Source: a candidate division WOR-3 bacterium
Lineage (GTDB): Bacteria > SDB-A
Direction of reading: 5' to 3'
Length of the DNA stretch: 32,834 nucleotides
NCBI GenBank assembly: GCA_016934535.1
Contig: JAFGSQ010000047.1
Span: 1-32,834 of the forward strand
Below, one piece after another: positions 5,566 through 19,687 of this stretch (the first letter of the stretch is position 1; each line of letters starts with the position of its first letter). The notes beneath the pieces are model-generated. The model was given only the letters and a program-made list of their open reading frames with translations. It was not told the origin of the DNA and did no database searches. The position numbers and the translations under genes are program-made.

Positions 5566-5784
5566 ATGATACTCGACAAAGAAAAATACAGGCAATATCT
5601 TGAAAATTCTATAAAAAACGACAATCTAATATACGAGAAGAAACTTGAAATTTTTGAAGAGATGTTCATCTTGTCCAAGGATTTGGGTTTACTCAATAAA
5701 ATTGATCCTCTGGAAGGTACGGAAAAGAACATAAGAATAGCCGGAATATTGAATAGATGTTTAAAAAATAACTCCTCAGATTAG
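5566..5784 (+). CDS. Small helical protein of unknown function
   Basis: Encodes 72 residues, rich in Glu, Lys, Leu and Ile with a regular heptad-like pattern, so predicted mostly alpha-helical, soluble and cytoplasmic. There is no signal peptide, one cysteine near the C terminus and a Pro-Leu-Glu-Gly break around residue 50. I do not recognise the family. Support for a real gene is moderate. A perfect TATAAT sits seven bases upstream of the ATG, the reverse frame is less protein-like, and it fills the gap between wecB (35 bases upstream) and the convergent radical SAM gene (14 bases downstream). It could be a partner of either neighbour, but nothing in the sequence shows this. Confidence 0.55.
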   Translation: MILDKEKYRQYLENSIKNDNLIYEKKLEIFEEMFILSKDLGLLNKIDPLEGTEKNIRIAGILNRCLKNNSSD

Positions 5785-5798
5785 TCTATAGTTTTTAG

Positions 5799-6749
5799 TT
5801 ATACATTACAAGAATACCTGCATGAGCCTAAACACGATTGATAATGACCGCAGGAAATGCAATTTTCGGAATAATTGTCATTTCTAAAACATTTAAGTTC
5901 TTCACACTCAACAATGTCCTTGAAATCATCTTTAAGAATGTTTCCGAGTACTGTTGAGCTTTGCTCGCAAGGCCTGACTCTTCCTTCGAAATCAACCGCG
6001 AATTTGACAACACCGCACAGACACAATGACATTTTAATGTTCCTGAAACCGCTGATGTCCGATTTACACCTCTCGAAAGGCAAGCCGAAAATAACTGGCA
6101 AACCGTATTTTCCCGAAAACTCGTCGGCGATTTTTATCAACTCAAGTTTTTCATCCGTACTTAAAATGAGTTCTTTTTTATTTTTCGCTCCCCTTCCTGT
6201 CGGGGAAAAATAATTTATTGTCGCTGAATCCGCCGAAAAAGCGAAGGCGAAGCTTAGCAGATCGCGGATTTCAAAAAAATTTATCTTCATAGCCGTAATC
6301 GAGACATTTATCCTGAATCCGTGTTTTTTTGAAAGCGCAATGTTGGATTTTACAGCTTCCACTCCATCTTTTCCGCAGATTTGTCTGTATTTTTCTTCTC
6401 TCAAAGTCGGAAGCGATATGTCTATAAGGTCAATTATTTTTGAAGAATTTTTAATTAAAAATTCTTCGCTCAGATTTTTTCCGTTCGTCGCCAGGCTTAC
6501 AAACTTTACTTCAGGCCTGCAGAATTCTATTAGTTCACTGAGACCTGTCTCCAAAAGAGGCTCTCCGCCCGTAAAGCAAATTCCGACCGGTTTGATTTTT
6601 GAAATTATACTTCCAAGGATTTTAAAGCTATTTTCCCGATTGCTTGTTCCAAATGTTTTGTTTTCATGATTTTTCCAGACGTTGTAACAATATATACAGT
6701 CATTGTCGCAATCGGGGGTCGCTTCAAAAACGACAAATAAATCATTCAT
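5799..6749 (-). CDS. Radical SAM enzyme with C-terminal SPASM domain
   Basis: Encodes 316 residues from the ATG at 6749, which overlaps the stop of the upstream paralogue by 8 bases; earlier in-frame starts would intrude into that gene. Residues 14-21 hold the radical SAM cluster motif C-x3-C-x2-C (CDNDCIYC), and GGEP at 61-64 is the SAM-binding motif. The C terminus has a SPASM signature: C245, G256 and C261, GNI at 269-271, then C297-x2-C300-x5-C306-x3-C310 and C314. This predicts one or two auxiliary [4Fe-4S] clusters. SPASM enzymes typically modify peptides or proteins (PqqE, AlbA, anSME). It is the last gene of the operon and is coupled to two tandem paralogues, which are candidate substrates or partners. 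No short RiPP-like precursor with a leader is evident. The exact reaction is unknown. Confidence 0.85.
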   Translation of the reverse strand: MNDLFVVFEATPDCDNDCIYCYNVWKNHENKTFGTSNRENSFKILGSIISKIKPVGICFTGGEPLLETGLSELIEFCRPEVKFVSLATNGKNLSEEFLIKNSSKIIDLIDISLPTLREEKYRQICGKDGVEAVKSNIALSKKHGFRINVSITAMKINFFEIRDLLSFAFAFSADSATINYFSPTGRGAKNKKELILSTDEKLELIKIADEFSGKYGLPVIFGLPFERCKSDISGFRNIKMSLCLCGVVKFAVDFEGRVRPCEQSSTVLGNILKDDFKDIVECEELKCFRNDNYSENCISCGHYQSCLGSCRYSCNV

Positions 6750-7602
6750 CCGAGAGCAGGTCTCTGAAAAGCGTGTCCATGAAGGGCAGGATAGTCTCCA
6801 AATAAAGCAAATCGGTTTTCGTCTTTTCATACAGCACATTGTATGAATCAAATACCGAATCACTTATTAAATTTTCATTTCTGAGTGAATCCATTCTTTT
6901 GTATGTCATATCAATGATTTTCAGGACGTCAAAATCTTCGTTTTCAACCCCATAAAGGTCTACCGGAGTTTCCCATCCCCATCTGTTCAATATCTGATGT
7001 GCGGTCTGAATTTTCGAGTATTTTTCAAGTTTTAGAATTATGTTGTCGAGAGCAGAATCAAATTGAGACCCGGAGATTTTTTCTTCGTCAAGGAGTCTGA
7101 AAAGCGTGTCGGTTTTCGCGTCAATGGCTTTAATCAGATTGTCGGAATTTATATCTATGGACGGTACTACCATCCTTGTCATGTATATGTATCCGGACAT
7201 GTATTTTATCCTCGACTCGATCATATTAGACAGCAGTTCAATTTCAAAAGAAGTAATAAGTCCCTCTTTTTCCATATCATTCATTGCATTCAATACTTTG
7301 TCTAAATTTTCTTCATGCGAGGACATATCAATGTATATAAAGCGATCTGCAGCGATTCCTGAATCGGGATGACTGTAATCAATCAGTGCGTCCAATTCCC
7401 TCCACATATTCTTGTATTCATTCCAGCCTTGAGACGACAATATTGAAGCTGCTCGGCTATGGTCATTTCTGTTTTCTCCACGCTTTCCATTACCATCTTC
7501 CGCGCGCTTTAAAGTGCATTTGAAAAGATTTACGGGCGCGGCAACAGCCAAAACAAAAAAACTTGCGAGCATTTCTTTAATAAACTTATTTTTATTCTTC
7601 AA
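6742..7602 (-). CDS. Tandem paralogue B, N-terminally hydrophobic helical protein of unknown function
   Basis: Encodes 286 residues from a TTG at 7602. This start has AGGAG six bases upstream (7608-7612) and makes the N terminus line up with paralogue A: basic, hydrophobic, then Phe-Lys-Cys. Residues ~10-27 are a hydrophobic segment (MLASFFVLAVAAPVNLF) that would export or anchor the protein; Lys before Cys argues against a lipobox. A charged, probably disordered linker follows, then a helical domain. It is clearly homologous to the next gene upstream, sharing GYI(F/Y)(L/M)TR, QFDSAL(E/D)NI, (R/N)WGW and PFMD(S/T)LFR. Three stretches resemble SHOCT-like helical hairpins (pattern L..E..IS...FDS.L). 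No enzyme motif is seen. Its stop overlaps the radical SAM start. Confidence 0.75.
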   Translation of the reverse strand: MKNKNKFIKEMLASFFVLAVAAPVNLFKCTLKRAEDGNGKRGENRNDHSRAASILSSQGWNEYKNMWRELDALIDYSHPDSGIAADRFIYIDMSSHEENLDKVLNAMNDMEKEGLITSFEIELLSNMIESRIKYMSGYIYMTRMVVPSIDINSDNLIKAIDAKTDTLFRLLDEEKISGSQFDSALDNIILKLEKYSKIQTAHQILNRWGWETPVDLYGVENEDFDVLKIIDMTYKRMDSLRNENLISDSVFDSYNVLYEKTKTDLLYLETILPFMDTLFRDLLSDE

Positions 7603-7607
7603 GATAT

Positions 7608-7612
7608 CTCCT
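7608..7612 (-). promoter_or_regulatory. Shine-Dalgarno that fixes a TTG start for paralogue B
   Basis: AGGAG on the minus strand, six bases before TTG at 7602. The longest open frame would start at 7728, inside the upstream gene and without a ribosome site. Using the TTG instead gives 286 residues, against 285 in the neighbouring paralogue. Confidence 0.65.
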
Positions 7613-7637
7613 GCTTTAATTTTCAACGAAACATGTT

Positions 7638-8495
7638 TTATTCTTCGGTGCAAAGATTTCTGAACAAAGAATCCATGAAAGGCGAGATCGAATCGAAAAC
7701 AGCTATTTCGGTCATGGTTTTCCGGCATTTTGCCTGAAAGCTATCATATTCGGCGAGGGTTATCCGGCCTTCATCAAGCATATTTCCGTATTTCAGCATA
7801 GTAATTTGAATTTCCCGTTCGACGTCAATACTGTCATCCTTTTCAAGGTCGGGATCATATCCGAACCTTTCTTTCCATCCCCAGTTGCGGAGAAAATCAT
7901 AAGCTGTCTGCATTCTGGCATAATCATTGAGATGACAGACTATATTTTCGAGAGCAGAATCGAATTGTCCGTCAGAAACAAGATTTTCCCGTTTCAACTC
8001 TTCAAGCTCGTTTATTCTCGCGTTAATAGTTTGTATCTTTTTGCTCATTTTCACATCTATAAGAGCAGGCATACATCTCGTTAGAAAGATATAGCCGGAT
8101 ATATGCTTGATTTTCGCTTCCGCCATATCCGCCAAAAGTTCTTTCTCGAAAGACGAAAGCAGACCGATTTCCTGAAGATATTCAAGAGAACTTAGCGATG
8201 CCATCAGACTGTCGCTCTGTTCTCTTAAATCTATGAACCTGAACTCTTGTATCAAACCCGTATCATCCGACAATCTGAAACGGGCGATTTCGTCCATCTC
8301 TCTCCATGCCTTTTTGAATCTTTTCCATGAATCCGAGGATGCTATTTCATAAAAACGCCCTCTCCGTTCATTGTTTTCATCGCCGCGTGATTCCTGCGCT
8401 TTTTTGCTGTTGAAGGCACATTTGAAAAACGTCAATGGAAACGAGACAGACATTATCAGTAAATGAGGTATATATTTCCTGTCAAGAATCTTCAT
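7638..8495 (-). CDS. Tandem paralogue A, N-terminally hydrophobic helical protein of unknown function
   Basis: Encodes 285 residues. The N terminus is basic then hydrophobic (residues ~8-24) and ends in Phe-Lys-Cys, as in paralogue B; it is probably exported or anchored, with the rest outside the cytoplasm. Residues ~27-50 are charged and low in complexity. The remainder is helical and carries three SHOCT-like repeats near LEYLQEIGLLSSFEKELL, LKRENLVSDGQFDSALENI and MLDEGRITLAEYDSF. A conserved Asn-Trp-Gly-Trp lies between the second and third repeats. It starts 9 bases after the stop of the FlgD-like gene and ends 35 bases before paralogue B, so it belongs to the same transcript. I do not recognise a described family; duplication followed by divergence is clear. 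Confidence 0.75.
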   Translation of the reverse strand: MKILDRKYIPHLLIMSVSFPLTFFKCAFNSKKAQESRGDENNERRGRFYEIASSDSWKRFKKAWREMDEIARFRLSDDTGLIQEFRFIDLREQSDSLMASLSSLEYLQEIGLLSSFEKELLADMAEAKIKHISGYIFLTRCMPALIDVKMSKKIQTINARINELEELKRENLVSDGQFDSALENIVCHLNDYARMQTAYDFLRNWGWKERFGYDPDLEKDDSIDVEREIQITMLKYGNMLDEGRITLAEYDSFQAKCRKTMTEIAVFDSISPFMDSLFRNLCTEE

Positions 8496-8504
8496 GCAGT
8501 TTTC

Positions 8505-9284
8505 TCATTCAATCCAGATGAATGTTTCGCCGACTGAGGTTCCGTTTTTATTCATCCGCACGAAATATTTTCCGGTCGGTAACAACCTGCCGCTATTGTC
8601 CCTGGGCTGCCAATAGAATTTGTGCTGACCGGCTTCGAAAAATCCCATGTCGTAATTGACGACGGTTCTGCCTGTGACATCTATTACTTCAATCGAAACG
8701 ATGCCCTCAACCGGCATGAAAAAAGAAATCTCCGCTGGATTCAAAGATCTGTCAAAAAGCATACCCAAAACATCCGGCACGGGGAAAACCTCCGGGTTTT
8801 CCTCCACTGAAACGCTGACACCTGATCTGTATAATATCTGAGAGGTCGTGTTGTATACGACAAATATTCGCTCTCCCAGGAAATAAGAGGTCCAAGCATA
8901 GTAAAAAGAATCAGAATTGTTGAACTCGAGTTGATTGGTGTTGTAGAAAATGTCCCTCAACACTACATAAGAATGGTCGGTTCCGACCGTATCGTACACC
9001 CAGTAAAGCGCTTCAATTTCCTGATCGTCATCGAAATCGCTCGAAACACCGACGATATCCCATGCGTAAACGTTCGAAGGCAGAGGAAGCGTAAAAGTTC
9101 CGAGAATATTGTAACCTGTGTCCATAATTGCGAAAATCGGAGCCACATTCTGCTGGATCACAATCAGAGGATTGGAAGGGAGACCCGTCGGACCGAAAAC
9201 TTTTCTTGCCTGAGTTACCTGAATCTGAGAAAACAGAGGATTTAACGCCGGCAAAAATGAAATCGCCAAAAACATCTTTTTCAT
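8505..9284 (-). CDS. Secreted protein with C-terminal FlgD-like/sorting-type Ig domain
   Basis: Encodes 259 residues from the ATG at 9284, supported by AGAGGTG just upstream; an earlier in-frame start at 9317 lacks this and would precede the signal peptide. Residues 1-20 form a Sec signal peptide (MKKMFLAISFLPALNPLFSQ) with likely cleavage after Ser-Gln or nearby. The C-terminal ~80 residues match the FlgD-Ig/Por-type sorting fold: an Asn-Pro-Ala start, SIEVIDVTGRTV, G.H.F.W...D.SG..LPTGKYFVRM. In FCB bacteria such domains often direct type IX secretion or surface attachment; whether that system exists here cannot be seen. The middle is beta-rich without a recognised motif. It sits between an Ig-like lipoprotein and the two paralogues, 33 and 9 bases away. 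Confidence 0.75.
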   Translation of the reverse strand: MKKMFLAISFLPALNPLFSQIQVTQARKVFGPTGLPSNPLIVIQQNVAPIFAIMDTGYNILGTFTLPLPSNVYAWDIVGVSSDFDDDQEIEALYWVYDTVGTDHSYVVLRDIFYNTNQLEFNNSDSFYYAWTSYFLGERIFVVYNTTSQILYRSGVSVSVEENPEVFPVPDVLGMLFDRSLNPAEISFFMPVEGIVSIEVIDVTGRTVVNYDMGFFEAGQHKFYWQPRDNSGRLLPTGKYFVRMNKNGTSVGETFIWIE

Positions 9285-9317
9285 TTCACACCTCTCTTTG
9301 AAAACAGCCGAAACCAA

Positions 9318-10214
9318 TTATTGCTGATCAACAGCAAATTTGAGAGTGAAGGTCTGGGCGGCTTTGCCGCCGTTTCCGTCATCGACTTCCACCGTCACGG
9401 CGTGAGATCCTTCGGATGGAATTTCCCATGTTATCAGACCTGTTCCGCTTATTGTCATTCCCGCTGGAGCCTGCGTGAGCGAATATGAAAGGGGATCTCC
9501 ATCGTGATCATTTGACATGATTTGATAGGTATACGCGCCTCCGCCGCTGACAAAAGGAGGCGACGAGACTATTGACGGAATGGCGTTTGTAATTATTACT
9601 GTGTTCGTGCTGTATTCTACGCCGTTCCCGTCAATAAGCCTAAGCATCAGTTCGTCGCCGCGTCTGAATCCCGCCAAAGCGAGGACCGTGTCATTGGCTC
9701 CTGCGACCGGCAAGCCGTTTTTGTACCATTGCGATTCAAATGAAAAATTTGTCCTGTCGCCGATTATTTCAACTCTCATAAGGCGTATTGTTCCCGCAAC
9801 AGTGACAGAATCAGGTCCGATCCTCGCCGCCGCGATTGAAGCTGAAGCAGGAGTACCCAAGGTCACCGAAGGAGAAACAAAAGTCTTATTTTGGCCGTCG
9901 TGAAAAAATACGAAGACAGCGGTTTTTATGGTTGCGCCAAGCGGTAATTGCGACGTTTCAAGCGTTTTTGACCTGACAGCGAGAGTTTCATTTTCGACAA
10001 TCCATAAATTGTACATCGAGTCAACTCCCGGGACGGAATAAGAATAATTCGCCGTAATCGGCTCACCTCGTAAAGGCGAAACTGGAGTCAGTTGGATTTG
10101 CATCACAGGCAGATTATTGTCTTCCTGGGTGCTGTTTTGTTCTGAGGATCCGTTTTCACTTGAACAGGAAAATATAAGCAAGCATATTGAACAGATTGAT
10201 AATAAGCTTTTCAT
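9318..10214 (-). CDS. Lipoprotein with a putative Ig/cadherin-like domain
   Basis: Encodes 298 residues. The N terminus is a lipoprotein signal (MKSLLSICSICLLIFSCSS) with Cys17 as the likely lipidated residue; Phe at -2 is unusual, but Ser at -1 fits. A Ser/Asn/Gln-rich tether follows. Residues ~235-295 match the putative-Ig/cadherin-like family: a D.DGDPLSYSL start, then PAGM, a W near the strand turn, and VEVDDGNGGKAAQTFTL. The middle ~150 residues look like further beta-sandwich domains. It is probably attached to the outer or inner membrane facing away from the cytoplasm, with a binding or structural role. Its ATG overlaps the upstream stop (ATGA) and GGAGGG lies before it, so it is translationally coupled to the hydrolase-like gene. 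Confidence 0.75.
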   Translation of the reverse strand: MKSLLSICSICLLIFSCSSENGSSEQNSTQEDNNLPVMQIQLTPVSPLRGEPITANYSYSVPGVDSMYNLWIVENETLAVRSKTLETSQLPLGATIKTAVFVFFHDGQNKTFVSPSVTLGTPASASIAAARIGPDSVTVAGTIRLMRVEIIGDRTNFSFESQWYKNGLPVAGANDTVLALAGFRRGDELMLRLIDGNGVEYSTNTVIITNAIPSIVSSPPFVSGGGAYTYQIMSNDHDGDPLSYSLTQAPAGMTISGTGLITWEIPSEGSHAVTVEVDDGNGGKAAQTFTLKFAVDQQ

Positions 10215-11992
10215 CTACCCTCCTCTGTCTGAAGCGGATTTGAATTTTCCACTATTCTGTTTATCCACTCTATTACGGTGTCGCTTACCGAAATATCTCT
10301 CGACGCGTCTTCGGGAAGCTTGAAATATTCAGCATATCCGTTTTTACCTTCTATTGTCGGTATGGCAAAATTGGCATCCAGACCGGGATAAATAACAAGT
10401 TTCGACAAGTCTTCAGGCAAGCCTCTCATTTTACAAACCGAGAACAATCTTTCGGCGTTAACCGAAGAAACAAAAGCGTCTTCCGCTCCGTGTATGAACA
10501 GGAAATGACAAGTTGAATTTATAATTTTTTTTACAGGGTCGAAATCCAGCAAAGACCGAGCGTAGGCAAGGTTTTCTCTTTCTCCGGGAAAACCGCTTAT
10601 ATCAGACCAGTAAACATCGGTGTTTCTTAAATTTTCAAGTCCTCTCTTCAGGTCCTCAATCTGCTTGGACAATCTTTCGTCAGACCATTCTCTCTCTTTT
10701 GCCTGCATAATAAGCATTTCTACGTTTCCTGAATCTACAGGATTAAGAGACGTCGCTCCGAGAGATATTACACCGCGAATCCTTCCTGCATAAGCGGGGT
10801 CTGAAGCGAGATCGAACGCGATTAGAGCCCCTTCACCGTGTCCGAGTATAAACACATTCCCCTTATCGATTTTGGGATTCGCATATAAAACATCGAACGC
10901 GGAAGCGGCATCTGATGCTAAAACACCCCAATGTAAAGAATCATAGCTTCCGCCGCTTTTACCCGTTCCGCGCTTGTCATAAACTAAAATCAATGCGCTT
11001 CCGTTTGAAGCCATCCTGTGAGCTAACGAAGAAAACACTCCCATCTGCCTTCTGTCGGACGCGGCATTTGAGTGTAGAAACAGAACACCCGGAACAGTTC
11101 CCTCCTGCGAGGGCGTGTAAAATGATCCAGCGATATTAACTCCGTCAGCGCCCCTGAAACTCACATCTTCCAGCGTGTAATTCTCAGGTTGAGGCGTGTA
11201 AACAGCAGGTTCTGGCAGTGTGAAAGGAGCGTCCGGATCTTCAAAAATACTCACTGTTATTCCCGAAGGCAAAACAAGTCTGGCCTGAAGAAGCGATCCG
11301 GCTCTGCCGTCTCCCCTCATTATTGTCCTTACCACTCCGTAAACGCTGTCGTCGCTCCAATACAGCATTGAGTCTTTCTCGATCTCCTTTCTGTATACTA
11401 TCCGGAATTCGGCGGTGTCATTTTTAGCTCTCATCAGTTCAATGACCGCACTGCCCCACTCTCCAAATGCGGAAGGAATCAGAACAGGAACTTCCTGCAT
11501 TTTTTCATAAAGAGTGTCTTTGAATACAAACCTGTTTACGAGGGCTTCTATGAGAAAAGCCTTGTCCCACTCTATGATAGCCGGGCCGTCCGGATCTTTG
11601 GGATCGTTGTTATAATATCTGGGAGAAGACACGACACTGTTTTGAAGCAATACGATCCAGGGTTTTTCGTATTTCAATCTGAAAGATATTTTCTGGCCGG
11701 GAAGCTGTTCGAAACATCTGTAACTGACTATTTGCATTGAAGAGATACCGGGAACCAGAAACAGTTTTGAATCGTAAACAATAGGTCTGAGCCTGAAAGG
11801 TCTTTCCTGTATGGACGATATAATTACTGTGTCTCCAGACCTTTCTCTTCGGACTGTTTCGTAACCCACCTGATTGTTGTCAACGGCAACATTGTATATT
11901 GTTTGCGGAATAAGAGGCACAACGCGAGAGCGAGAGCCCTGTGAACAGGAAATTAAAAAAAGGACGGGTAAAAACATTGATAATTTTCTCAT
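10211..11992 (-). CDS. Lipoprotein with alpha/beta-hydrolase fold lacking the catalytic Ser and His
   Basis: Encodes 593 residues from the ATG at 11992, which has GGGAGA upstream; an earlier in-frame start would put 11 polar residues before the signal. Cys16 in LFLISC is a good lipobox. Residues ~25-270 are a beta-rich N-terminal region of unknown fold. Residues ~275-585 are an alpha/beta-hydrolase domain: LFLHSNAASDR for the oxyanion region (~304-314), then YDKRGTGKSGG (338-348). The nucleophile elbow is GHGEG (384-388) instead of G-x-S-x-G, so Ser is replaced by Gly386. The acid Asp505 is present in HGAEDAFV, but the motif usually reading PGLxH reads YPGLDANF, with Ala540 for His. It may be a pseudoenzyme with a binding role. 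It follows moaB by 57 bases and overlaps the next lipoprotein gene. Confidence 0.82.
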   Translation of the reverse strand: MRKLSMFLPVLFLISCSQGSRSRVVPLIPQTIYNVAVDNNQVGYETVRRERSGDTVIISSIQERPFRLRPIVYDSKLFLVPGISSMQIVSYRCFEQLPGQKISFRLKYEKPWIVLLQNSVVSSPRYYNNDPKDPDGPAIIEWDKAFLIEALVNRFVFKDTLYEKMQEVPVLIPSAFGEWGSAVIELMRAKNDTAEFRIVYRKEIEKDSMLYWSDDSVYGVVRTIMRGDGRAGSLLQARLVLPSGITVSIFEDPDAPFTLPEPAVYTPQPENYTLEDVSFRGADGVNIAGSFYTPSQEGTVPGVLFLHSNAASDRRQMGVFSSLAHRMASNGSALILVYDKRGTGKSGGSYDSLHWGVLASDAASAFDVLYANPKIDKGNVFILGHGEGALIAFDLASDPAYAGRIRGVISLGATSLNPVDSGNVEMLIMQAKEREWSDERLSKQIEDLKRGLENLRNTDVYWSDISGFPGERENLAYARSLLDFDPVKKIINSTCHFLFIHGAEDAFVSSVNAERLFSVCKMRGLPEDLSKLVIYPGLDANFAIPTIEGKNGYAEYFKLPEDASRDISVSDTVIEWINRIVENSNPLQTEEGR

Positions 11993-12049
11993 GTTCTCTC
12001 CCTTATTTTTATTCGCTTTATCCAATTGAAATACAAAGAAACAAAAATA

Positions 12050-12517
12050 TCAATGCTTTTCTCCTCTGAACATTTTCAGTGCGTGTCCCATAACAGGAGT
12101 CAGTGTTTGGGCGCAGAGTTTAACGGCATTCATTGATCCCGGAAAATTCACTATTATTGTCCGGCTCTTTACTCCGGCATAAATTCTCGACAGCATCGCG
12201 TTGGGTGTTTCTTTATAGCATTCAGCGAGCAAAGCTCCTGACATCCCGGGTAAATCATAATCACAGTAATTTCTTGATACGTCAGGCGTCCTGTCTCTTT
12301 CCGAAATACCTGTTCCGCCTGTGGTCAGAATGAAATCGGAATCCGCGCATTTCTCGAGTGCGGACAATATCTGAGATTCATCATCCGGGACAATCTGCCT
12401 GGAAATATCTGCGGAGGGAAAAGCCTCCCTGACAATCCTTTCTATTTCAGGTCCGGTCAAGTCTTCGTAAACTCCTGTGTGAGCTCTGTCAGATATTGTA
12501 ATAACAGATACTTTCAC
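12050..12517 (-). CDS. moaB: Molybdopterin adenylyltransferase-type protein (MoaB/Mog family)
   Basis: Encodes 155 residues from a GTG at 12517 with GGAGGGG about nine bases upstream. It overlaps the MOSC gene by 29 bases. MoaB/Mog proteins adenylylate molybdopterin, preparing it for metal insertion by MoeA in the cytoplasm. Visible landmarks are VITISDRA at the N terminus, LTTGGTGISERDRTPD for the molybdopterin-binding loop, and LPGMSGALLAE and NFPGSMNAVKLC further on. The size fits a standalone MoaB/Mog; sequence alone does not separate the two names. It is the last molybdenum-cofactor gene of the operon before the lipoprotein genes. Confidence 0.92.
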   Translation of the reverse strand: MKVSVITISDRAHTGVYEDLTGPEIERIVREAFPSADISRQIVPDDESQILSALEKCADSDFILTTGGTGISERDRTPDVSRNYCDYDLPGMSGALLAECYKETPNAMLSRIYAGVKSRTIIVNFPGSMNAVKLCAQTLTPVMGHALKMFRGEKH

Positions 12518-12929
12518 TGCTTATTTCCCCTCCAATGACTACTTTTGCGAATATTCCTTTTTTGGGCATTACACATTGACCAAGTTGTTTTTCAATTTCG
12601 CATCCCGAATGGCATTCTTTTCCAATCTGCGTCACTTCGAGCATAGCGTCTCCCAAGTGGAGTTCAGTCCCCTTGGGCAAACTCGAAAGATCCACACCCT
12701 GAGTAGTAATGTTTTCGGCAAAATCACCGTATGAAATTTTAATTTTTCCTTTGACGGTTTCTTCTATGTCTTCAGCGGCGAGAAGAGAAACCTGCCTGTG
12801 CCAGTTGTCGGCATGAGCGTCTCCCTCGATTCCCCATCCTTCTTTTAAATATGCTTTTGCCACCGAAATTTTTTTTCTGCCTTTTTCATTTGAAATATTC
12901 ACGGACAGTATTTTGAAATTTTTATTCAT
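12489..12929 (-). CDS. Standalone MOSC-domain protein
   Basis: Encodes 146 residues. MOSC domains occur in molybdenum-cofactor sulfurases and in small standalone proteins thought to carry or transfer sulfur or bind the cofactor. Seen here are GIEGDAHADNWHRQVSLL (34-51), YGDFAENITTQGVDLSSLP, the LGDAMLEVTQIGKECHSGC stretch with C106 and C110, and the late MPKKGIFAKVVIGGEI. The conserved cysteine of the family corresponds to one of C106/C110. It lies inside the moaA-moaC-moaB run, with a 4-base overlap with moaC upstream and a 29-base overlap with moaB downstream, which supports a direct role in making or modifying the cofactor used by the formate dehydrogenase. Confidence 0.88.
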   Translation of the reverse strand: MNKNFKILSVNISNEKGRKKISVAKAYLKEGWGIEGDAHADNWHRQVSLLAAEDIEETVKGKIKISYGDFAENITTQGVDLSSLPKGTELHLGDAMLEVTQIGKECHSGCEIEKQLGQCVMPKKGIFAKVVIGGEISSESICYYNI

Positions 12930-13384
12930 CTGTCGTCTTTCCTCTTCTCTACAAGTTTTATACCGGTTATTTTCATTTTTTTATCCACCGCTTTGCACAT
13001 GTCATATACCGTTAATGCGGCAACAGCTACCGCCGTAAGAGCTTCCATTTCGACACCCGTCTTTGATTCTGTCTTAACTTCGGCGGTAATGATTACGGCT
13101 TTTTCTTCCAACTCAAACGACAATTTAACGCTTTCGAGAGGTATTACGTGCGAAAGAGGAATCAATACCTGGGTTTTTTTTGCACCCTGTATTCCAGCAA
13201 TGTTTGCCACGGCGAGTACGTCACCTTTTATAACCGAGTTTTGTTTTATTAAAGTTATCGTGTTTTCCGAAAGTTCAATTCTCCCTTCGGCCTTCGCGTA
13301 TCTTTTTACAGCCTTTTTTTCAGAGACATCGACCATTGATGCTTTTCCCAGATCGTCGGTGTGAGAAAATATTTTGTCGTTCAT
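12926..13384 (-). CDS. moaC: Cyclic pyranopterin monophosphate synthase
   Basis: Encodes 152 residues, normal for MoaC. It acts after MoaA to turn 3',8-cyclo-7,8-dihydro-GTP into cyclic pyranopterin monophosphate in the cytoplasm. The protein opens with the usual H.D..G.A.MVDVSEK..., keeps GDVLAVANIAGIQGAKKT and IPLSH (commonly IPLCH, so Cys to Ser while the His is kept), then the family signature TGVEMEALTAVAVAALTVYDMCKA and the closing DKKMKI. Start and stop overlap neighbouring genes as ATGA on both sides (moaA upstream, MOSC downstream), indicating translational coupling within the molybdenum-cofactor operon. Confidence 0.95.
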   Translation of the reverse strand: MNDKIFSHTDDLGKASMVDVSEKKAVKRYAKAEGRIELSENTITLIKQNSVIKGDVLAVANIAGIQGAKKTQVLIPLSHVIPLESVKLSFELEEKAVIITAEVKTESKTGVEMEALTAVAVAALTVYDMCKAVDKKMKITGIKLVEKRKDDR

Positions 13385-14175
13385 CCGCCTATCTCGTTCA
13401 TCTTTCTATTACGGCACACGCAACCTCTTTCCGGTTTTGAAAGAACGGTCTTGACAAGAGAGTTGTATATGTCTTTGTAATCTACTGTAATCTCGATGTC
13501 GTTGTGCAGACAGGGTTTCAGTTTGCCGTCCGACATAAGCCTAATTCTGTTGCAGTTTTCGCATTTCGGAGGTCTGTCGAACGGGCTTTCAGTCTTGACG
13601 CTGTCGAGAGTGTAAGCGTTAATTAATTGAAGCGATATTTCCAATCGTGAACAAAATTTTTTCATTTTCATTATTTCACCTTCACCGGTGTCTTTGAGGA
13701 CGACCATGTTAATTTTTACGGAGAGGTTTTCTTCGATCGCGCTTTCAATACCCTGAAGTACAGCTTTAATGTCTCCGCCTCTTGTTACGGCTTTGTATCT
13801 TTCTGGATCAAGCGTGTCGAGGGATATGTTCACTCTGTCGAGCCCGTTTTTTCTGAGTGCCGCAGCTTTTTTAGATAACAGTATGCCGTTTGTCGTCATA
13901 CAGACTTCCTCTATACCGTCAATGGCAGATATTTGGGTTACGAGATCTTCAATACCTTTTCTGACAAGCGGTTCGCCTCCTGTCAGTCGTATTTTTTTAA
14001 TTCCAATTCTGACTGAGTCTCTGACGATTTTAACAATGTTTTCGTAAGAAATTATGTCGGAGTGGGCTTTTTTTTCTATTCCCTCTTCGGGCATGCAGTA
14101 AAAGCATCTGAGATTGCACCTGTCGGTAACTGAAACGCGAAGATAAGAGATTTCGCGGTTATATTTGTCTAACAT
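13381..14175 (-). CDS. moaA: GTP 3',8-cyclase, compact form
   Basis: Encodes 264 residues from the ATG at 14175, placed so that the family N terminus (YNREISYLRVSVTDRC) begins correctly; an earlier in-frame ATG at 14217 lies deeper inside moeA. This radical SAM enzyme makes the first molybdopterin intermediate from GTP. It has C20-x3-C24-x2-C27 for the SAM cluster, TGGEP, the second cluster motif C205-x2-C208-x13-C222 including CNRIRL, and the C-terminal Gly-Gly needed for activity in MoaA. It is short: typical MoaA has ~320-340 residues. The loss falls between the barrel strand at LQLI and the CENC motif, where only ~20 residues replace the usual 70-80. The frame is unbroken, so this is a compact variant rather than a frameshift. 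Confidence 0.9.
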   Translation of the reverse strand: MLDKYNREISYLRVSVTDRCNLRCFYCMPEEGIEKKAHSDIISYENIVKIVRDSVRIGIKKIRLTGGEPLVRKGIEDLVTQISAIDGIEEVCMTTNGILLSKKAAALRKNGLDRVNISLDTLDPERYKAVTRGGDIKAVLQGIESAIEENLSVKINMVVLKDTGEGEIMKMKKFCSRLEISLQLINAYTLDSVKTESPFDRPPKCENCNRIRLMSDGKLKPCLHNDIEITVDYKDIYNSLVKTVLSKPERGCVCRNRKMNEIGG

Positions 14176-15325
14176 AAACTTCTTCTTCGGCCGGAACTGT
14201 TTCGATGCCGTCGTCAATTCTCAAAAGAGCGTTTGCTCCGCCGAGAGCCACTATATCGCCGGAACCGTGATATTGTGGAAACGTAATCTGTCCGGTCACG
14301 TGTTTGACAGGAACAAATTCCACTCTCGAAACGTCTTTTCTGCTGAATTTTTCCTCGAGCCGTCCTTTTATAAAAGAAGGTTTATACGGGAATCTCATCA
14401 GATTGTAAATAAAAGGTTTTATCAAGATTTCGAAAATCACCAGAACCGACACCGGGTTTCCCGGCACACCGAAGGCGAACTTAGTGTCTTTTTCTCCGAA
14501 AATAGTCGGTTTGCCGGGTTTTACGGCCAAAGAATCGAATCTTACTGAAATTCCGTTTTTCGAGAACGCTCTTTCAGTCAAATCCTTTTCTCCTACTGAC
14601 GAACCGCCCGTTACCAGAATTACGTCGCATTCTTCCATGGCTCTGGCGATGGAATCGTATATCTCGTACAAATCATCCGAGACCCTGCTGTAAAGCTTCT
14701 TTCTGAAAAGACACGATCCCAGAAGAGCTGAAATCTGAAAAAGGTTGCTGTCGTATATCTTTCCGAATTCAAGCGGCCTGCCGGGCTCTTCCAATTCGTC
14801 TCCCGTAGTTATTACACCTATAAGAGGGCACACCGGCAGAATTATTTCGTTGTAACCGGAGGAAGCGAGGATACCGATTTCTTTTGGGCTCAAAATGCAT
14901 TTTGCGATTAAAAGCTGGTCTTTTCTGACGTATTCCCCGCGCCTTGCTATGTTTTGCGTCTCTTCTGCCTGAATAATACTCATGAATCCCTGTGACTCCG
15001 AAGCGAATTCTTTTCTTATTATTGTATCGGCGCCGTCAGGCAGTATGCCGCCTGTCATAATTTTTGCGCATTCCCCGTTTATGACAGATTTCTCGGGTTT
15101 TTTCCCGGCACCAATGATCTGGGTTATCTTGAATTTTTCCGAAACGTCAAGAAAGTCGTATGCGTATCCGTCCATGGCGGCTTTGTTATAAGGCGGCAGA
15201 TCGGTTTTTGAAAATATATCGTAATTGAGAGGTCTGTTGAGAGCGTTTTCAATCCTCACTGGTTCGGTTTCTGTTTTTATTGAATATTTTAACAAAAATT
15301 CCAAAGCTTTATCCGGATGAAGCAT
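14159..15325 (-). CDS. moeA: Molybdopterin molybdenumtransferase
   Basis: Encodes 388 residues, typical of MoeA. It inserts molybdate into adenylylated molybdopterin. The order of motifs is as expected: PPYNKAAMDGYA near residue 43, the domain with IMTGGILPDGADTIIRKE, the VITTGDELEEPG loop, VTGGSSVGEKD for molybdopterin binding, VKPGKPT and FGVPGNPVSVLVIFE, then a C-terminal beta domain. AAGGAG precedes the ATG at 15325, and a strong promoter lies 35-63 bases upstream (15360-15388). It is the first gene of the long minus-strand operon and its last 17 bases overlap moaA. Confidence 0.95.
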   Translation of the reverse strand: MLHPDKALEFLLKYSIKTETEPVRIENALNRPLNYDIFSKTDLPPYNKAAMDGYAYDFLDVSEKFKITQIIGAGKKPEKSVINGECAKIMTGGILPDGADTIIRKEFASESQGFMSIIQAEETQNIARRGEYVRKDQLLIAKCILSPKEIGILASSGYNEIILPVCPLIGVITTGDELEEPGRPLEFGKIYDSNLFQISALLGSCLFRKKLYSRVSDDLYEIYDSIARAMEECDVILVTGGSSVGEKDLTERAFSKNGISVRFDSLAVKPGKPTIFGEKDTKFAFGVPGNPVSVLVIFEILIKPFIYNLMRFPYKPSFIKGRLEEKFSRKDVSRVEFVPVKHVTGQITFPQYHGSGDIVALGGANALLRIDDGIETVPAEEEVYVRQI

Positions 15326-15583: not shown

Positions 15584-16429
15584 ATGGCTGAGATAGTCAA
15601 TGTCGGATGCAAAACTCCGGCGAATGTCGCGGAAACCCTTTCCAGGACCACTTGCGTCCAGAAAACGACGGCTTCTGACTGGAAACTCATCGTATTGGGT
15701 ATTTTTGCCGGTGTTTATATCGGTTTCGGGGCCTCAATAGCGACACTCGTAGGATCTGATTCAGCAAAATTTCTCGGAGTGGGGCTGAGTAAATTTTTTG
15801 TCGGAGGAGTTTTCAGCGTAGGACTAATGCTCGTTGTAATAGCCGGCGCGGAACTTTTTACGGGCAACAACCTCATGCTCATGGGTGCTCTTGAAAAAAG
15901 AGTTTCAGTAGGTAAAGTACTTTACAAATGGCTCGTAGTTTACTTAGCAAACTTCGCGGGTTCGGTTCTTCTTGCATATCTCATTTATGTCAGCGGCCTT
16001 TGGAAGGGCGGAGAATTTTTAACCGGCGTAGCCGCCATTAAAATTGCCGCGGCAAAAGTCAGTCTTCCATGGGTGGAAGCTTTTGTAAGAGGTATTCTCT
16101 GCAACATACTTGTCTGTCTCGCTGTATGGATGGCAATTGCTTCGAGTAACATCGTAGGAAAGATATTCGCGATTTTCTTTCCAATAATGACATTCGTTGC
16201 AATGGGATTTGAGCACAGTGTAGCCAACATGTATTTTATTCCTCTGGGTCTTTTCCTGAAAGGAACTGCGGCCGCGGCGGCCTCAGGCCTCGATTTGAGC
16301 GGACTGACATGGATATCATTCCTCTGGAACAATCTTCTGCCCGTAACTCTTGGAAACATCATCGGAGGGGCGTTTTTCGTCGGGGCTCTCTACTGGATGG
16401 TTTACGTAAGAAACAGCAAGCAGGCATGA
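15584..16429 (+). CDS. Formate/nitrite transporter family channel (FocA/FdhC-like)
   Basis: Encodes 281 residues, normal for the family, with GGAGG seven bases upstream. These inner-membrane pentameric channels move formate, nitrite or hydrosulfide. Six membrane helices are visible at about 35-55, 70-92, 112-137, 168-188, 194-210 and 250-275. Family signatures are GAELFTGNN (88-96) at the second helix and GFEHSVANMYFIP (208-220), with His211 matching the conserved pore histidine. Formate is the likely substrate, given the overlap with mobA, the fdhD gene next in the operon and the formate dehydrogenase just downstream on the other strand. Direction of transport cannot be inferred, and nitrite or HS- remain possible. 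Confidence 0.9.
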   Translation: MAEIVNVGCKTPANVAETLSRTTCVQKTTASDWKLIVLGIFAGVYIGFGASIATLVGSDSAKFLGVGLSKFFVGGVFSVGLMLVVIAGAELFTGNNLMLMGALEKRVSVGKVLYKWLVVYLANFAGSVLLAYLIYVSGLWKGGEFLTGVAAIKIAAAKVSLPWVEAFVRGILCNILVCLAVWMAIASSNIVGKIFAIFFPIMTFVAMGFEHSVANMYFIPLGLFLKGTAAAAASGLDLSGLTWISFLWNNLLPVTLGNIIGGAFFVGALYWMVYVRNSKQA

Positions 16430-17010
16430 CACAGGCAGTTATCCTCGCCGGCGGCAAAAGCAGCCGTTTCGGCAGAGATAAAGCTTTCGAAAAATTTGGG
16501 GACTCGACTCTGGTCGAGTCCGTTTTTTTTTCTTTAAAAGAAATTTTCTCCGATATCATTATCGTAACCAATTGCCCTGAAAACTTCTCTATATTTGAAG
16601 CCAAAACAGTAAAGGACATAGTTCCAGGCAGAGGTCCTATCGGCGGGATTTACACTGGACTGCTGTCGTCCAGTTCACAGAGAATATTCGCCATAGCCTG
16701 CGACATGCCGTTCCTTGACAAAGATTTTATAAAATACATGATTTCAATAAAAGAAGGGGACGTCATAGTACCGAGAAAAGAAAAAGACCTCTACGAACCT
16801 CTTCACGCAGTCTATTCAAAAAACTGTCTGCCGTACATTCTTGATCAGCTCAACAAAGGAGACAATAAAATTCAGAATTTTTTCAGCTTTGTCAAAACCG
16901 TCTATGTTGAAAAAGACGTAATCCTTCGCTTTGACACCGAAATGAAAATGTTTTTCAACATAAATGAAAAAAACGATCTCAAGAGATTCAAAACGTGTAT
17001 AGAAAAATGA
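16426..17010 (+). CDS. mobA: Molybdenum cofactor guanylyltransferase
   Basis: Encodes 194 residues from the ATG at 16426, which overlaps the channel stop as ATGA; the upstream in-frame extension lies entirely within the channel gene. It attaches GMP to Mo-molybdopterin to form the MGD cofactor of formate dehydrogenases. Visible motifs are AVILAGGKSSRFGRDKAFEKFG (first 20 or so residues, the nucleotide loop), VPGRGPIGGIYTGL, and AIACDMPFLD with the metal-binding Asp. The length matches MobA. Its stop overlaps fdhD as ATGA, so the three genes are translationally chained. Confidence 0.94.
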   Translation: MTQAVILAGGKSSRFGRDKAFEKFGDSTLVESVFFSLKEIFSDIIIVTNCPENFSIFEAKTVKDIVPGRGPIGGIYTGLLSSSSQRIFAIACDMPFLDKDFIKYMISIKEGDVIVPRKEKDLYEPLHAVYSKNCLPYILDQLNKGDNKIQNFFSFVKTVYVEKDVILRFDTEMKMFFNINEKNDLKRFKTCIEK

Positions 17011-17750
17011 GAATCAAGAGGATCGACCTCCGGGACGGCGAGACCTTTTTTGAAGACAAAATAATAAAAGAATCAATGATAAAAATCTTAGTCAACGGCT
17101 CCGAAATGTCAAACATGGTTTGCTCTCCGTCCCAACTCGACGAGCTCGCTGTCGGCCGTCTTTTCTCCGAGGGTTTTATCGAATCGGCCAAGGAGATATC
17201 ATCAATAGAAATTGAAAAAGACAAAATGACAGTAAATGTGGCGCTCAAAAAAAAACCGACTGACGCTGGAATTGAGAAACAATACGTAATGACATCCGGA
17301 TGCGGACAGGCGGCATCGGATCTCAATCTTCTCCAGGGGAAAGGACTTAAACCTCTCGATAAACCGAGAATGTTCGATGCGAAAATAATTCTGGATCTGT
17401 TAAGGGAATTTCAGAAAAGATCTTTGATTTTCGCCGAAACCGGCGGAGTTCACGCGGCGGCATTGTGCAGGACCGACAAAATCATTTCTTTCAAAGAAGA
17501 CATTGGCCGTCACAACGCAGTGGACAAAATAATCGGAGAGGCACTGCTCGGTGGAAAAAACGGAGAAGGTCTGTACATGCTTTTTTCCGGAAGAATATCC
17601 TCTGAAATTCTTGTTAAATCGCTGAAGTTCGGAGTTTATCTCATAGCTTCGAGATCCGCACCGACTGATCGAGCTGTTGAGCTCGCCAGAAAGACAAACA
17701 TCAGACTTATAGGCTTTGCCAGAGGATTCAGATTGAACGTCTACAATTAA
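17007..17750 (+). CDS. fdhD: Formate dehydrogenase sulfurtransferase FdhD
   Basis: Encodes 247 residues from the ATG at 17007, chosen for its ATGA overlap with mobA; an in-frame ATG at 16995 is possible. FdhD passes sulfur from a cysteine desulfurase to the MGD cofactor, which activates formate dehydrogenase. Seen are DELAVGRLFSEGFI, the loop TSGCGQ with Cys99, FAETGGVHAAALC, FKEDIGRHNAVDKIIG and FSGRISSEILVK, all family motifs. E. coli FdhD carries two cysteines in a CxxC loop; here only one is present. The partner dehydrogenase is encoded convergently at 19687-21738. The gene ends 22 bases before a strong terminator hairpin. Confidence 0.94.
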   Translation: MRIKRIDLRDGETFFEDKIIKESMIKILVNGSEMSNMVCSPSQLDELAVGRLFSEGFIESAKEISSIEIEKDKMTVNVALKKKPTDAGIEKQYVMTSGCGQAASDLNLLQGKGLKPLDKPRMFDAKIILDLLREFQKRSLIFAETGGVHAAALCRTDKIISFKEDIGRHNAVDKIIGEALLGGKNGEGLYMLFSGRISSEILVKSLKFGVYLIASRSAPTDRAVELARKTNIRLIGFARGFRLNVYN

Positions 17751-17772
17751 TTTTTTTCGTTCATTAAATTAA

Positions 17773-17798
17773 AAAAAGGCGGAATAATCCGCCTTTTT
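17773..17798. terminator. Bidirectional rho-independent terminator between fdhD and the dehydrogenase operon
   Basis: A perfect 11-base inverted repeat, AAAAAGGCGGA / TCCGCCTTTTT, with a 4-base ATAA loop. The G+C core is flanked by an A run on the left and a T run on the right, so it should terminate transcripts from both strands. It sits between two convergent stop codons. Confidence 0.9.
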
Positions 17799-17815
17799 CT
17801 CAAACCTGTCCTTTA

Positions 17816-18634
17816 TTATTCTACGTCTAATAGTTTCAACTGGGCGTAAGTGAAAACAGGACCGTCAGTACAGCAATATTTGCTTCCTATTATGCAGTGT
17901 CCGCATTTTCCTATTCCGCATTTCATGTGCATTTCCATAGTCGTTATAATGTCTTTGGCTCTCATTTTTTTTTCGGCGAGAGTAATGTTGGTGAATTTTA
18001 TCATTATTGGAGGTCCGCAAAGATATGCTATGGTGCTGTTCGGGTTGAACTCAACGCTTTCAAAGAGCTTGGTGACGACGCCGACACTGCCTTTCCAGCT
18101 CGCGTCCGGACTGTCAACCGTCCTCAGCACTTCAACATCCGGATATTTCGCCCATCTTGCCATTTCGTCGTCGTAAACGCATTCGGCGGGACATTTGGCT
18201 CCGTAAAGGATCCATATCTTGCCGTATTTGCCGCGATTGTTGAAAACAGCATTCATCACGGATCTGAGCGGCAGTAATCCTATTCCACCCGCGACGAAAA
18301 GGATGTCTTTCCCCTCGAATTCTTCCCAGGGAAAAGAATTACCGTATGGTCCGCGGACGAAAAATTCGTCTCCCTCTTTGAGTTCGTGTAAAGCGTCCGT
18401 TAAAACACCAACTTTCCTGACGGCTAATTCGAGATCGTCTCCCCTTTCACACGTTGAAGTGATCGAGATGGGAGCTTCACCCTTTCCGAAAATCGAGACT
18501 TGAACGAATTGCCCCGGTTTCCAAACGAAAGGTTTTTCGTCTTTGAATTTCAGCGTGAAATGCTTTACGTCAAAAACAAGATTCTTTAATTTTTTAATCT
18601 CTACTGCACGCGGCAGATATTCGTTTTTATTCAT
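17816..18634 (-). CDS. FAD/NAD(P)-binding [2Fe-2S] electron-transfer subunit (HydG-of-sulfhydrogenase/PyrK-like)
   Basis: Encodes 272 residues with GGGAG upstream. Layout: a ferredoxin-reductase-type FAD domain (~8-100, with the flavin loop around APISITS at 54-60), an NAD(P)-binding domain beginning VAGGIGLLPLRS (114-125) and ending LCGPPIMIKF, and a C-terminal [2Fe-2S] motif with C239-x4-C244-x2-C247 and C254 or C255, followed by DGPVF. It resembles the gamma subunit of archaeal-type sulfhydrogenase, AsrB and PyrK. It would pass electrons between NAD(P)H and the neighbouring Fe-S subunit in the cytoplasm. Last gene of the dehydrogenase operon, 12 bases after the beta-like subunit. It is unrelated to the radical SAM HydG at 24931. 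Confidence 0.87.
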   Translation of the reverse strand: MNKNEYLPRAVEIKKLKNLVFDVKHFTLKFKDEKPFVWKPGQFVQVSIFGKGEAPISITSTCERGDDLELAVRKVGVLTDALHELKEGDEFFVRGPYGNSFPWEEFEGKDILFVAGGIGLLPLRSVMNAVFNNRGKYGKIWILYGAKCPAECVYDDEMARWAKYPDVEVLRTVDSPDASWKGSVGVVTKLFESVEFNPNSTIAYLCGPPIMIKFTNITLAEKKMRAKDIITTMEMHMKCGIGKCGHCIIGSKYCCTDGPVFTYAQLKLLDVE

Positions 18635-18646
18635 TTTACAGCTCCC

Positions 18647-19687
18647 TCATGATAGTGACAGTATGATTTCTTTGATATCGATATTGACAGGACAGGCGTC
18701 GAGGCATCTGCCGCACCCGACACAGCCGGTATCGCCGAATTTCATCTTGTCCCACAAAAGCTTACAGTAATATCGGTTCCCGGTGCGTTGTTCTTTTTTC
18801 TCCATCGGGTTATGTCCGCCTGCCATCCTGAAATATCCGCTCATCATGCAGGAATCTATTATTCTCTTTCTTATGCCTTTTCCTTCTTTCTGGCTGTCGG
18901 TAACATTGAAACAGGTACACGTCGGACAAACATAGTTGCACGCTCCGCAGGAAATGCATCTGTTCGTAATCTCGGACAAAAGCTTGTCGTCAACCGGATT
19001 GCCTGCCATTTTACCGAGAGCTTTATCTTTGTCGAGGTTTTCAGCGACAGGCAGTCCCGAAGCTTTCAATTTTTTTTCTTCCCATTTTTTCTCATAATCG
19101 GCGTCGGCTACATCAAACAATGCTTTGTCTTTAGTCACTATGACGCGCCCTTTTTCGCTTCCGATGTTTACGAAGAAATAGCCGTCTTCCATGTCGGTAA
19201 GTTGAACATCGAATCCTTTTTCAGCGAAAGGACCCGTCTTCATTGTGGCACAGAAACAACTTTCCGAAGGAGGTGTAAGGCAAGACATGCTTATCAGAGT
19301 CAGTTTGTCGCGCGCGTTTTTGTAGTAGTAATCCTCAAACTCTCTCTGTGCAAAGAAATTGTCAGTATATAGTATGCCTGCAATATCACAGCTCGGTAGT
19401 CCGAATATAACGGTTTCCTCTGAATTGTCTATGCTTTTAATCTTTGTTTCTCTCCCTTTTTTCTCGAATTCGATCATAGGTTCAATCTGACCAAAAAGAG
19501 CTTCACGCACGGAGGGCATAAGGGGTTTGTGCTCTTTCAGCAAGACTTTGCCTGTGTCTTCGACGGGAAGAAAATTTATGTCACCGAATTCGTTTTCTTG
19601 AGGCGCGAGAAGGTTGGAACTTTTTTTAAAATTTTCGAGGAGTTTAAAAATATTTGCCTCGGTAATTTTGAATTTGTCGGTCGACAT
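18647..19687 (-). CDS. Fe-S electron-transfer subunit (sulfhydrogenase beta/AsrA-like)
   Basis: Encodes 346 residues. Two [4Fe-4S] ferredoxin motifs are clear: C244-x2-C247-x2-C250-x3-C254, and C322-x2-C325-x2-C328-x3-C332-P. Extra cysteines at 100, 136, 144 and 146 (GLPSCDI, SMSC, ESCFCATM) lie in the N-terminal domain shared by sulfhydrogenase beta subunits and AsrA. It probably wires the formate dehydrogenase active-site subunit to the flavoprotein encoded next. Its ATG shares one base with the dehydrogenase stop (TGATG), so translation is coupled. Alternative reading as an anaerobic sulfite reductase subunit is less likely, because the partner catalytic subunit is a formate dehydrogenase. 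Confidence 0.87.
   Translation of the reverse strand: MSTDKFKITEANIFKLLENFKKSSNLLAPQENEFGDINFLPVEDTGKVLLKEHKPLMPSVREALFGQIEPMIEFEKKGRETKIKSIDNSEETVIFGLPSCDIAGILYTDNFFAQREFEDYYYKNARDKLTLISMSCLTPPSESCFCATMKTGPFAEKGFDVQLTDMEDGYFFVNIGSEKGRVIVTKDKALFDVADADYEKKWEEKKLKASGLPVAENLDKDKALGKMAGNPVDDKLLSEITNRCISCGACNYVCPTCTCFNVTDSQKEGKGIRKRIIDSCMMSGYFRMAGGHNPMEKKEQRTGNRYYCKLLWDKMKFGDTGCVGCGRCLDACPVNIDIKEIILSLS

Follow-up and report, generated by a model that had tools for sequence, protein, structure and literature searches.

In a 32,834-nucleotide stretch of DNA from a candidate division WOR-3 bacterium (hereafter, the window), two tandem genes for diverged copies of an unannotated protein (partners A and B) lie directly upstream of a gene for a SPASM-domain radical SAM enzyme. 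The pairing of partner and enzyme recurs in three phyla and is therefore not due to chance, and we conclude that it is probably a new system for the chemical alteration of a protein before export. The genes and their distribution make it fairly probable that A and B are protein substrates of a dedicated SPASM maturase, altered in the cytoplasm before they are exported.

The gene cassette and its surroundings

The open reading frames of the cassette follow one another on the minus strand of the window in the order A, B, radical SAM gene. Partner A (positions 7638 to 8495; 285 aa, ATG start) comprises an N-terminal hydrophobic segment, a charged linker, and a predicted all-helical domain; A and its paralogue B (6742 to 7602, minus strand; 286 aa) are the candidate substrates. 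B starts with TTG behind a ribosome-binding site, GCAGGAG, located ∼5 bp ahead, and an alternative ATG frame of 328 aa would overlap A. The third gene (5799 to 6749, minus strand) encodes the candidate maturase of 316 aa, and its ATG sits in ATGAATGA, which also holds the stop codon of B. The first-pass annotation had described tandem paralogues, the second overlapping the radical SAM gene, and this description stands: an alignment of the adjoining A and B spans 285 columns at 33% identity (E = 3e-56), and B runs 8 bp into the enzyme gene, with the same overlap in two congeners. A and B are the sole two partner copies in the window genome.

Upstream of the pair on the same strand (8505 to 15325) are genes for a FlgD-Ig sorting-type protein, an Ig/PKD lipoprotein, and an alpha/beta-hydrolase lipoprotein, as well as moeA-moaA-moaC-MOSC-mog. 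Their linkage to the pair holds within the genus of the window genome but not in the second phylum described below. Genes for a formate/nitrite transporter, a MobA-like protein, FdhD, an FAD/NAD oxidoreductase, and a molybdopterin oxidoreductase at 15584 to 21294 probably represent a formate dehydrogenase region. Outside the cassette, a 72-aa open reading frame on the plus strand (5566 to 5784) lies behind a UDP-GlcNAc 2-epimerase gene and has a 65% identical counterpart in the same place in congener G002.

The radical SAM enzyme

The enzyme scored above the gathering thresholds of both Pfam Radical_SAM (PF04055; E = 4.5e-16, 59.9 bits, gathering 29.5) and Pfam SPASM (PF13186; E = 7.7e-7, 29.8 bits, gathering 21.5). 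The radical SAM cluster motif, C14-x3-C18-x2-C21 (CX3CX2C), has all three Cys in 31/31 enzymes of the subfamily, and C228, C243, C245, C261, C297, C300, C306, and C310, all in the C-terminal half, are kept in at least 30 of the 31. These include the C297-x2-C300-x5-C306-x3-C310 signature, which is present just as it was first annotated. By definition, the C-terminal half of a SPASM-domain enzyme carries seven or eight conserved Cys that serve auxiliary clusters (PMC10452713), in agreement with the eight observed here. Since no conserved distal Cys follows C310 across the 31 enzymes (the last auxiliary ligand of the canonical full SPASM motif), an auxiliary cluster may be left with an open ligand position or use a different ligand, and the cluster set may differ from that of canonical SPASM enzymes (PMC10452713). 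Judged by Pfam score and Cys number, the protein is a SPASM-domain enzyme outside the canonical full-motif members.

We built a maximum-likelihood tree from 61 radical SAM proteins, in which all 31 enzymes of the subfamily fell on one side of a branch with 99/95 support (99% of bootstrap trees). The nearest rows to this partner-linked clade were G267, followed by G106 and G121, and the larger group had 99/97 support. Among NCBIfam profiles, the best for the window enzyme was NirJ2 (88.7 bits, cutoff 500), then GeoRSP (TIGR04303; 76.5 bits, cutoff 400) and AhbD (72.7 bits, cutoff 500); NirJ reached 52.4 bits (cutoff 515). GeoRSP was also the top profile for the related enzyme of G242 (95.6 bits), but the score of the window enzyme is far under the cutoff, and the cassette reported here consists of partner and enzyme with no other conserved gene. 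The rSAM/lipoprotein-type systems of TIGR04133 are similar in that a SPASM enzyme is named after an associated exported protein; however, the window enzyme scored 44 bits against a cutoff of 425, and the partners matched no NCBIfam model.

The partner family

Neither A nor B matched any Pfam or NCBIfam model above cutoff. A SHOCT domain was considered and rejected, as SHOCT_2 gave 19.2 bits against a gathering threshold of 24, in one paralogue only. Alignment of 27 diverse partners revealed only three invariant residues, W57, W64, and R140 (A numbering), with R128, T139, P143, L167, P272, and L281 kept in at least 90%. The two Trp form W57-x6-W64 on the first long helix of A (8304 to 8327, minus strand), aligned with W60-x6-W67 of B (7402 to 7425, minus strand). 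R140 belongs to a loop with the consensus T-R-M-[MVIA]-P-P, which reads TRCMPA in A (residues 139 to 144; 8064 to 8081, minus strand) and TRMVVP at the equivalent place in B (residues 142 to 147; 7162 to 7179, minus strand). The conserved Trp, Arg, and Pro residues may simply be structural.

Using the deeper 27-row alignment, the mean pLDDT of the AlphaFold2 model of A rose from 69.5 to 80.6. The predicted fold contains helices only, placing W57 and W64 on a helix of residues 55 to 74 and R140 in the loop between helices 135 to 138 and 145 to 169. Foldseek searches with both models found no match at E ≤ 0.001 in either PDB or BFVD, and a PDB sequence search with the partner yielded nothing better than E ≥ 0.007. 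Comparisons using hhalign (0.0003 to 0.04, versus ≥0.07 for reversed controls) give weak support for internal helical repeats, and in sequence QFDSAL looks like a turn of this repeat.

The motifs (N/R)WGW, FKC, and QFDSAL(E/D)NI that had been reported for A and B are found in both. The accompanying suggestion to look for modification at the Trp and Cys positions was not supported by comparison, nor was QFDSAL as a candidate site: WGW, QFDSAL, and the Cys that follows the hydrophobic segment are lost in relatives and confined to the window lineage or part of it, and many partners are Cys-free. Because 15 of 41 partners contain no Cys at all, the common reaction cannot be Cys-thioether chemistry. 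The Cys expected of sactipeptide, ranthipeptide, or QhpC-type thioether substrates is missing from these 15, and a reaction shared by the whole family cannot depend on a cysteine of the substrate. The absence of a short precursor peptide, also noted in the first-pass annotation, extends to related loci. Small-ORF clusters in 28 such loci overlap the coding regions of partner or enzyme, bar one genus-level group upstream of the partner; no short ORF conserved across genera lies outside coding regions, and the partners (∼231 to 329 aa) are unlike the short, leader-bearing precursors of RiPPs.

The hydrophobic segment of A (residues 8 to 26; 8418 to 8474, minus strand), a putative export or anchor signal, ends in Lys-Cys. 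In 37/41 partners, the best hydrophobic 15-mer precedes the first conserved Trp. Second-phylum partners have classical-looking signal peptides, as judged by eye (e.g., L094, ...SPAATA|QTT). Partners from the window's genus lack a clear cleavage site in this segment, which makes the export of A and B less certain than that of the second-phylum partners. We rejected a lipoprotein reading of A and B based on the Lys at position −1 of the Cys in all six lineage sequences, where a canonical lipobox has a small residue, and on the lack of Cys at this place in nearly all second-phylum partners. The lipoproteins upstream in the window operon carry FSC or ISC, unlike the Lys-Cys of A.

Distribution and linkage of the pair

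Among the genomes compared, the relatives of the window genome below the domain level are two congeners and one family relative only, and profile searches detected the partner in all four genomes of this phylum-level lineage. Congener G001 keeps A, B, and the enzyme gene in order, and G002 has a single, B-type partner copy with the enzyme gene. In the family relative, G003, a single partner and a single enzyme (36% identity) are encoded on different contigs, and the 217 bp available ahead of the enzyme gene contain no partner. This record (LKUE01, L030) is named Desulfuromonas sp. SDB, groups with the WOR-3-labeled window lineage, and is placed by GTDB in phylum SDB-A; the NCBI name is therefore probably wrong.

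An early pattern scan with a six-row alignment reached the two nearest relatives only, and the wider family needed profile searches. A profile of four enzymes searched against 386 bacterial genomes returned G370, G242, G267, and G272 as the top group outside the lineage (162 to 209 bits), and the proteins directly upstream of the G242 and G370 enzymes proved homologous to A and B (hhalign E values of 2e-14 and 8e-8, respectively). In the second phylum, to which G242 and G370 belong, the partner was counted in 30/42 genomes, 18/24 good genomes, and 8/9 genera, often in two to three tandem copies, at an E value of ≤1e-5, which may miss diverged copies (the partner of G389 was found by adjacency only). 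Subfamily enzymes in this phylum gave full-length hits of 158 to 297 bits, versus ≤121 bits for the next class, and each one with upstream sequence is preceded directly by a partner or, at a contig edge, by the 3′ end of a partner. In a third phylum, the partner occurs in one of two genomes, G272, as a partner followed by the enzyme gene at a contig edge.

Overall, a partner lies directly upstream of the subfamily enzyme in 34/35 assessable cases (three in G000 to G002; 28 in L098 to L123, L035, and L036; two in G405 and G390; and one in G272), counts that are nonindependent because many genomes are congeners and that reduce to three phyla and roughly a dozen genera as independent units. The lone exception is G003. 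Within the 386-genome sample, the partner was present in exactly seven genomes, all with a subfamily enzyme (≥155 bits), and seven of the eight genomes with the enzyme also carry the partner (Fisher test, 3e-14, not corrected for phylogeny). The genetic link between the paralogues and a single SPASM subfamily, first proposed from the window, is deeper than was claimed, recurring as it does in three phyla. Widespread occurrence of the paralogues without the enzyme, named at the outset as evidence against such coupling, was not seen; orphan partner copies exist in trans, but most of them are in genomes that possess the cassette as well.

Distances between partners and between enzymes co-vary across 28 pairs (Mantel r = 0.93; 0 of 2,000 permutations as high), a co-divergence that alone can also stem from shared descent. 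The partner evolves faster, with a mean identity of 30%, versus 43% for the enzyme, yet W57, W64, and R140 are constant in the 27 aligned partners. Across the genera of the second phylum, the pair has no further conserved companion gene. Searches by tblastn of one family member against plasmids and of another against phages gave no match to mobile elements.

Sister cassettes with unrelated exported proteins

The sister enzymes of the partner-linked clade adjoin a different, Cys-rich family of exported proteins. In these cassettes, two to four tandem exported paralogues with an invariant AMCY motif and two CxxC pairs immediately precede a SPASM radical SAM gene (L065:5868-9427 in G106; L043:80-1456 plus the enzyme gene in G121; and L150 in G370). 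AMCY-type proteins occur in 22/42 second-phylum genomes, and a radical SAM gene lies just downstream in 22/27 groups checked, including those of G106 and G121. The proteins match no NCBIfam or Pfam family above cutoff, and homology to A and B was ruled out by sequence (hhalign E = 0.58). The AMCY cassettes of G106, G121, G370, and others thus resemble that of the window in that the gene for a related SPASM enzyme directly follows tandem exported paralogues but differ in their Cys-rich partner.

The G267 enzyme, near the partner-linked clade, has a different upstream protein. At this locus (L063:2861-4705), the gene lies behind one for a Trp/Ser/Pro-repeat protein (WSSPWSSPYSS...) with the ending KIMCYFMGPP, which resembles AMCY..M..PP in the G121 proteins, and a second radical SAM-like open reading frame is located upstream.

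Proposed function and alternatives

We propose that the radical SAM enzyme would bind the freshly made partner in the cytoplasm, aided by translational coupling through the overlapping genes, and, using its CX3CX2C cluster and auxiliary Fe-S clusters, would generate a SAM-derived radical that modifies the partner. The modification would most likely lie within or beside the T-R-M-x-P-P loop (R140), and perhaps on the W57/W64 helix, after which the modified partner would leave the cytoplasm for the envelope or periplasm. On this view, a single enzyme would serve several substrates, namely the tandem and orphan partners. The data fit a maturase acting on proteins better than a cofactor enzyme or scaffold because only the pair is conserved across phyla, the two proteins co-diverge (r = 0.93), it is the partner and not the enzyme that is multiplied, orphan copies exist, and sister enzymes adjoin an unrelated tandem exported family. 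Against the substrate reading, partner and enzyme are not adjacent in G003, and typical SPASM substrates are peptides, whereas the partner is a folded protein of 230 to 330 aa.

A rather unlikely alternative is that the partner is a helper. As a scaffold, chaperone, or membrane tether, it would hold the enzyme in place or deliver to it a different peptide, protein, or lipid. An all-helical predicted fold with weak internal repeats would suit a scaffold, the pairing is obligate in the second phylum, and the hydrophobic segment looks uncleaved in the window's genus. However, the second-phylum signal peptides, recognized by eye, would put the mature partner and the cytoplasmic enzyme in separate compartments, and there is no other conserved neighbor to serve as the real substrate. 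Two to three diverged tandem copies plus orphans would be unexpected for a stoichiometric helper, as would replacement by an unrelated exported family in the sister cassettes. We consider it improbable that the operon has an ordinary envelope function, with the invariant residues purely structural and the enzyme serving something else in the same regulon. The neighboring hydrolase lipoprotein, PKD lipoprotein, and sorting-domain protein are all envelope proteins, and the modified residue is not deducible from sequence, but these neighbors accompany the pair within the genus only, while the pair alone persists across phyla. Very unlikely, and rejected here, is a role of the enzyme in making or altering a cofactor (heme d1, as for NirJ2, or AhbD-like, or the molybdenum cofactor of the adjoining operon) with the partner a mere neighbor: NirJ2, GeoRSP, and AhbD are the best profiles and the operon in the window's genus starts with moeA-moaA-moaC-MOSC-mog, but the scores are far below each equivalog cutoff (88.7 versus 500 for NirJ2), and no molybdenum genes were observed beside the pair in second-phylum genomes, in contrast to the near-perfect partner linkage across phyla.

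The substrate role proposed for A and B, with cytoplasmic modification before export, has a precedent in QhpD, a radical SAM enzyme that, in the cytoplasm, introduces thioether bonds into QhpC, a protein from the same operon that ends in the periplasm (PMC7876137). As we propose here from the genes, an operon-encoded enzyme acts in that case on one dedicated protein substrate before it reaches the periplasm (PMC7876137). In contrast, QhpD makes Cys-to-Asp/Glu thioethers, and QhpC is small and mostly coil with a 28-residue leader, whereas our partners are larger, helical, often tandem, and in 15/41 cases without Cys. Anaerobic sulfatase maturases (anSMEs) are SPASM enzymes that likewise act on a whole protein, at the Cys or Ser of the sulfatase motif; unlike in those systems, there is no sulfatase here, and TIGR03942 is absent from the 25 best profiles for the window enzyme.

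To our knowledge, most characterized SPASM enzymes target short peptides or cofactors, and few dedicated pairs with whole-protein substrates are known. A search of open-license papers found no described system of this kind. Tentatively, the pair could represent a new maturation class in which a SPASM clade installs a Cys-independent modification, such as a Trp- or Arg-centered cross-link or a protein-derived cofactor, at the T-R-M-x-P-P loop of folded exported helical proteins, with the sister branch acting analogously on AMCY-type proteins. The findings link one enzyme clade to an unannotated exported family in three uncultured phyla and its sister clade to a second unannotated family. These pairs are concrete, expressible candidate enzyme-substrate sets with short candidate sites, and their chemistry would fall outside the usual Cys thioether.
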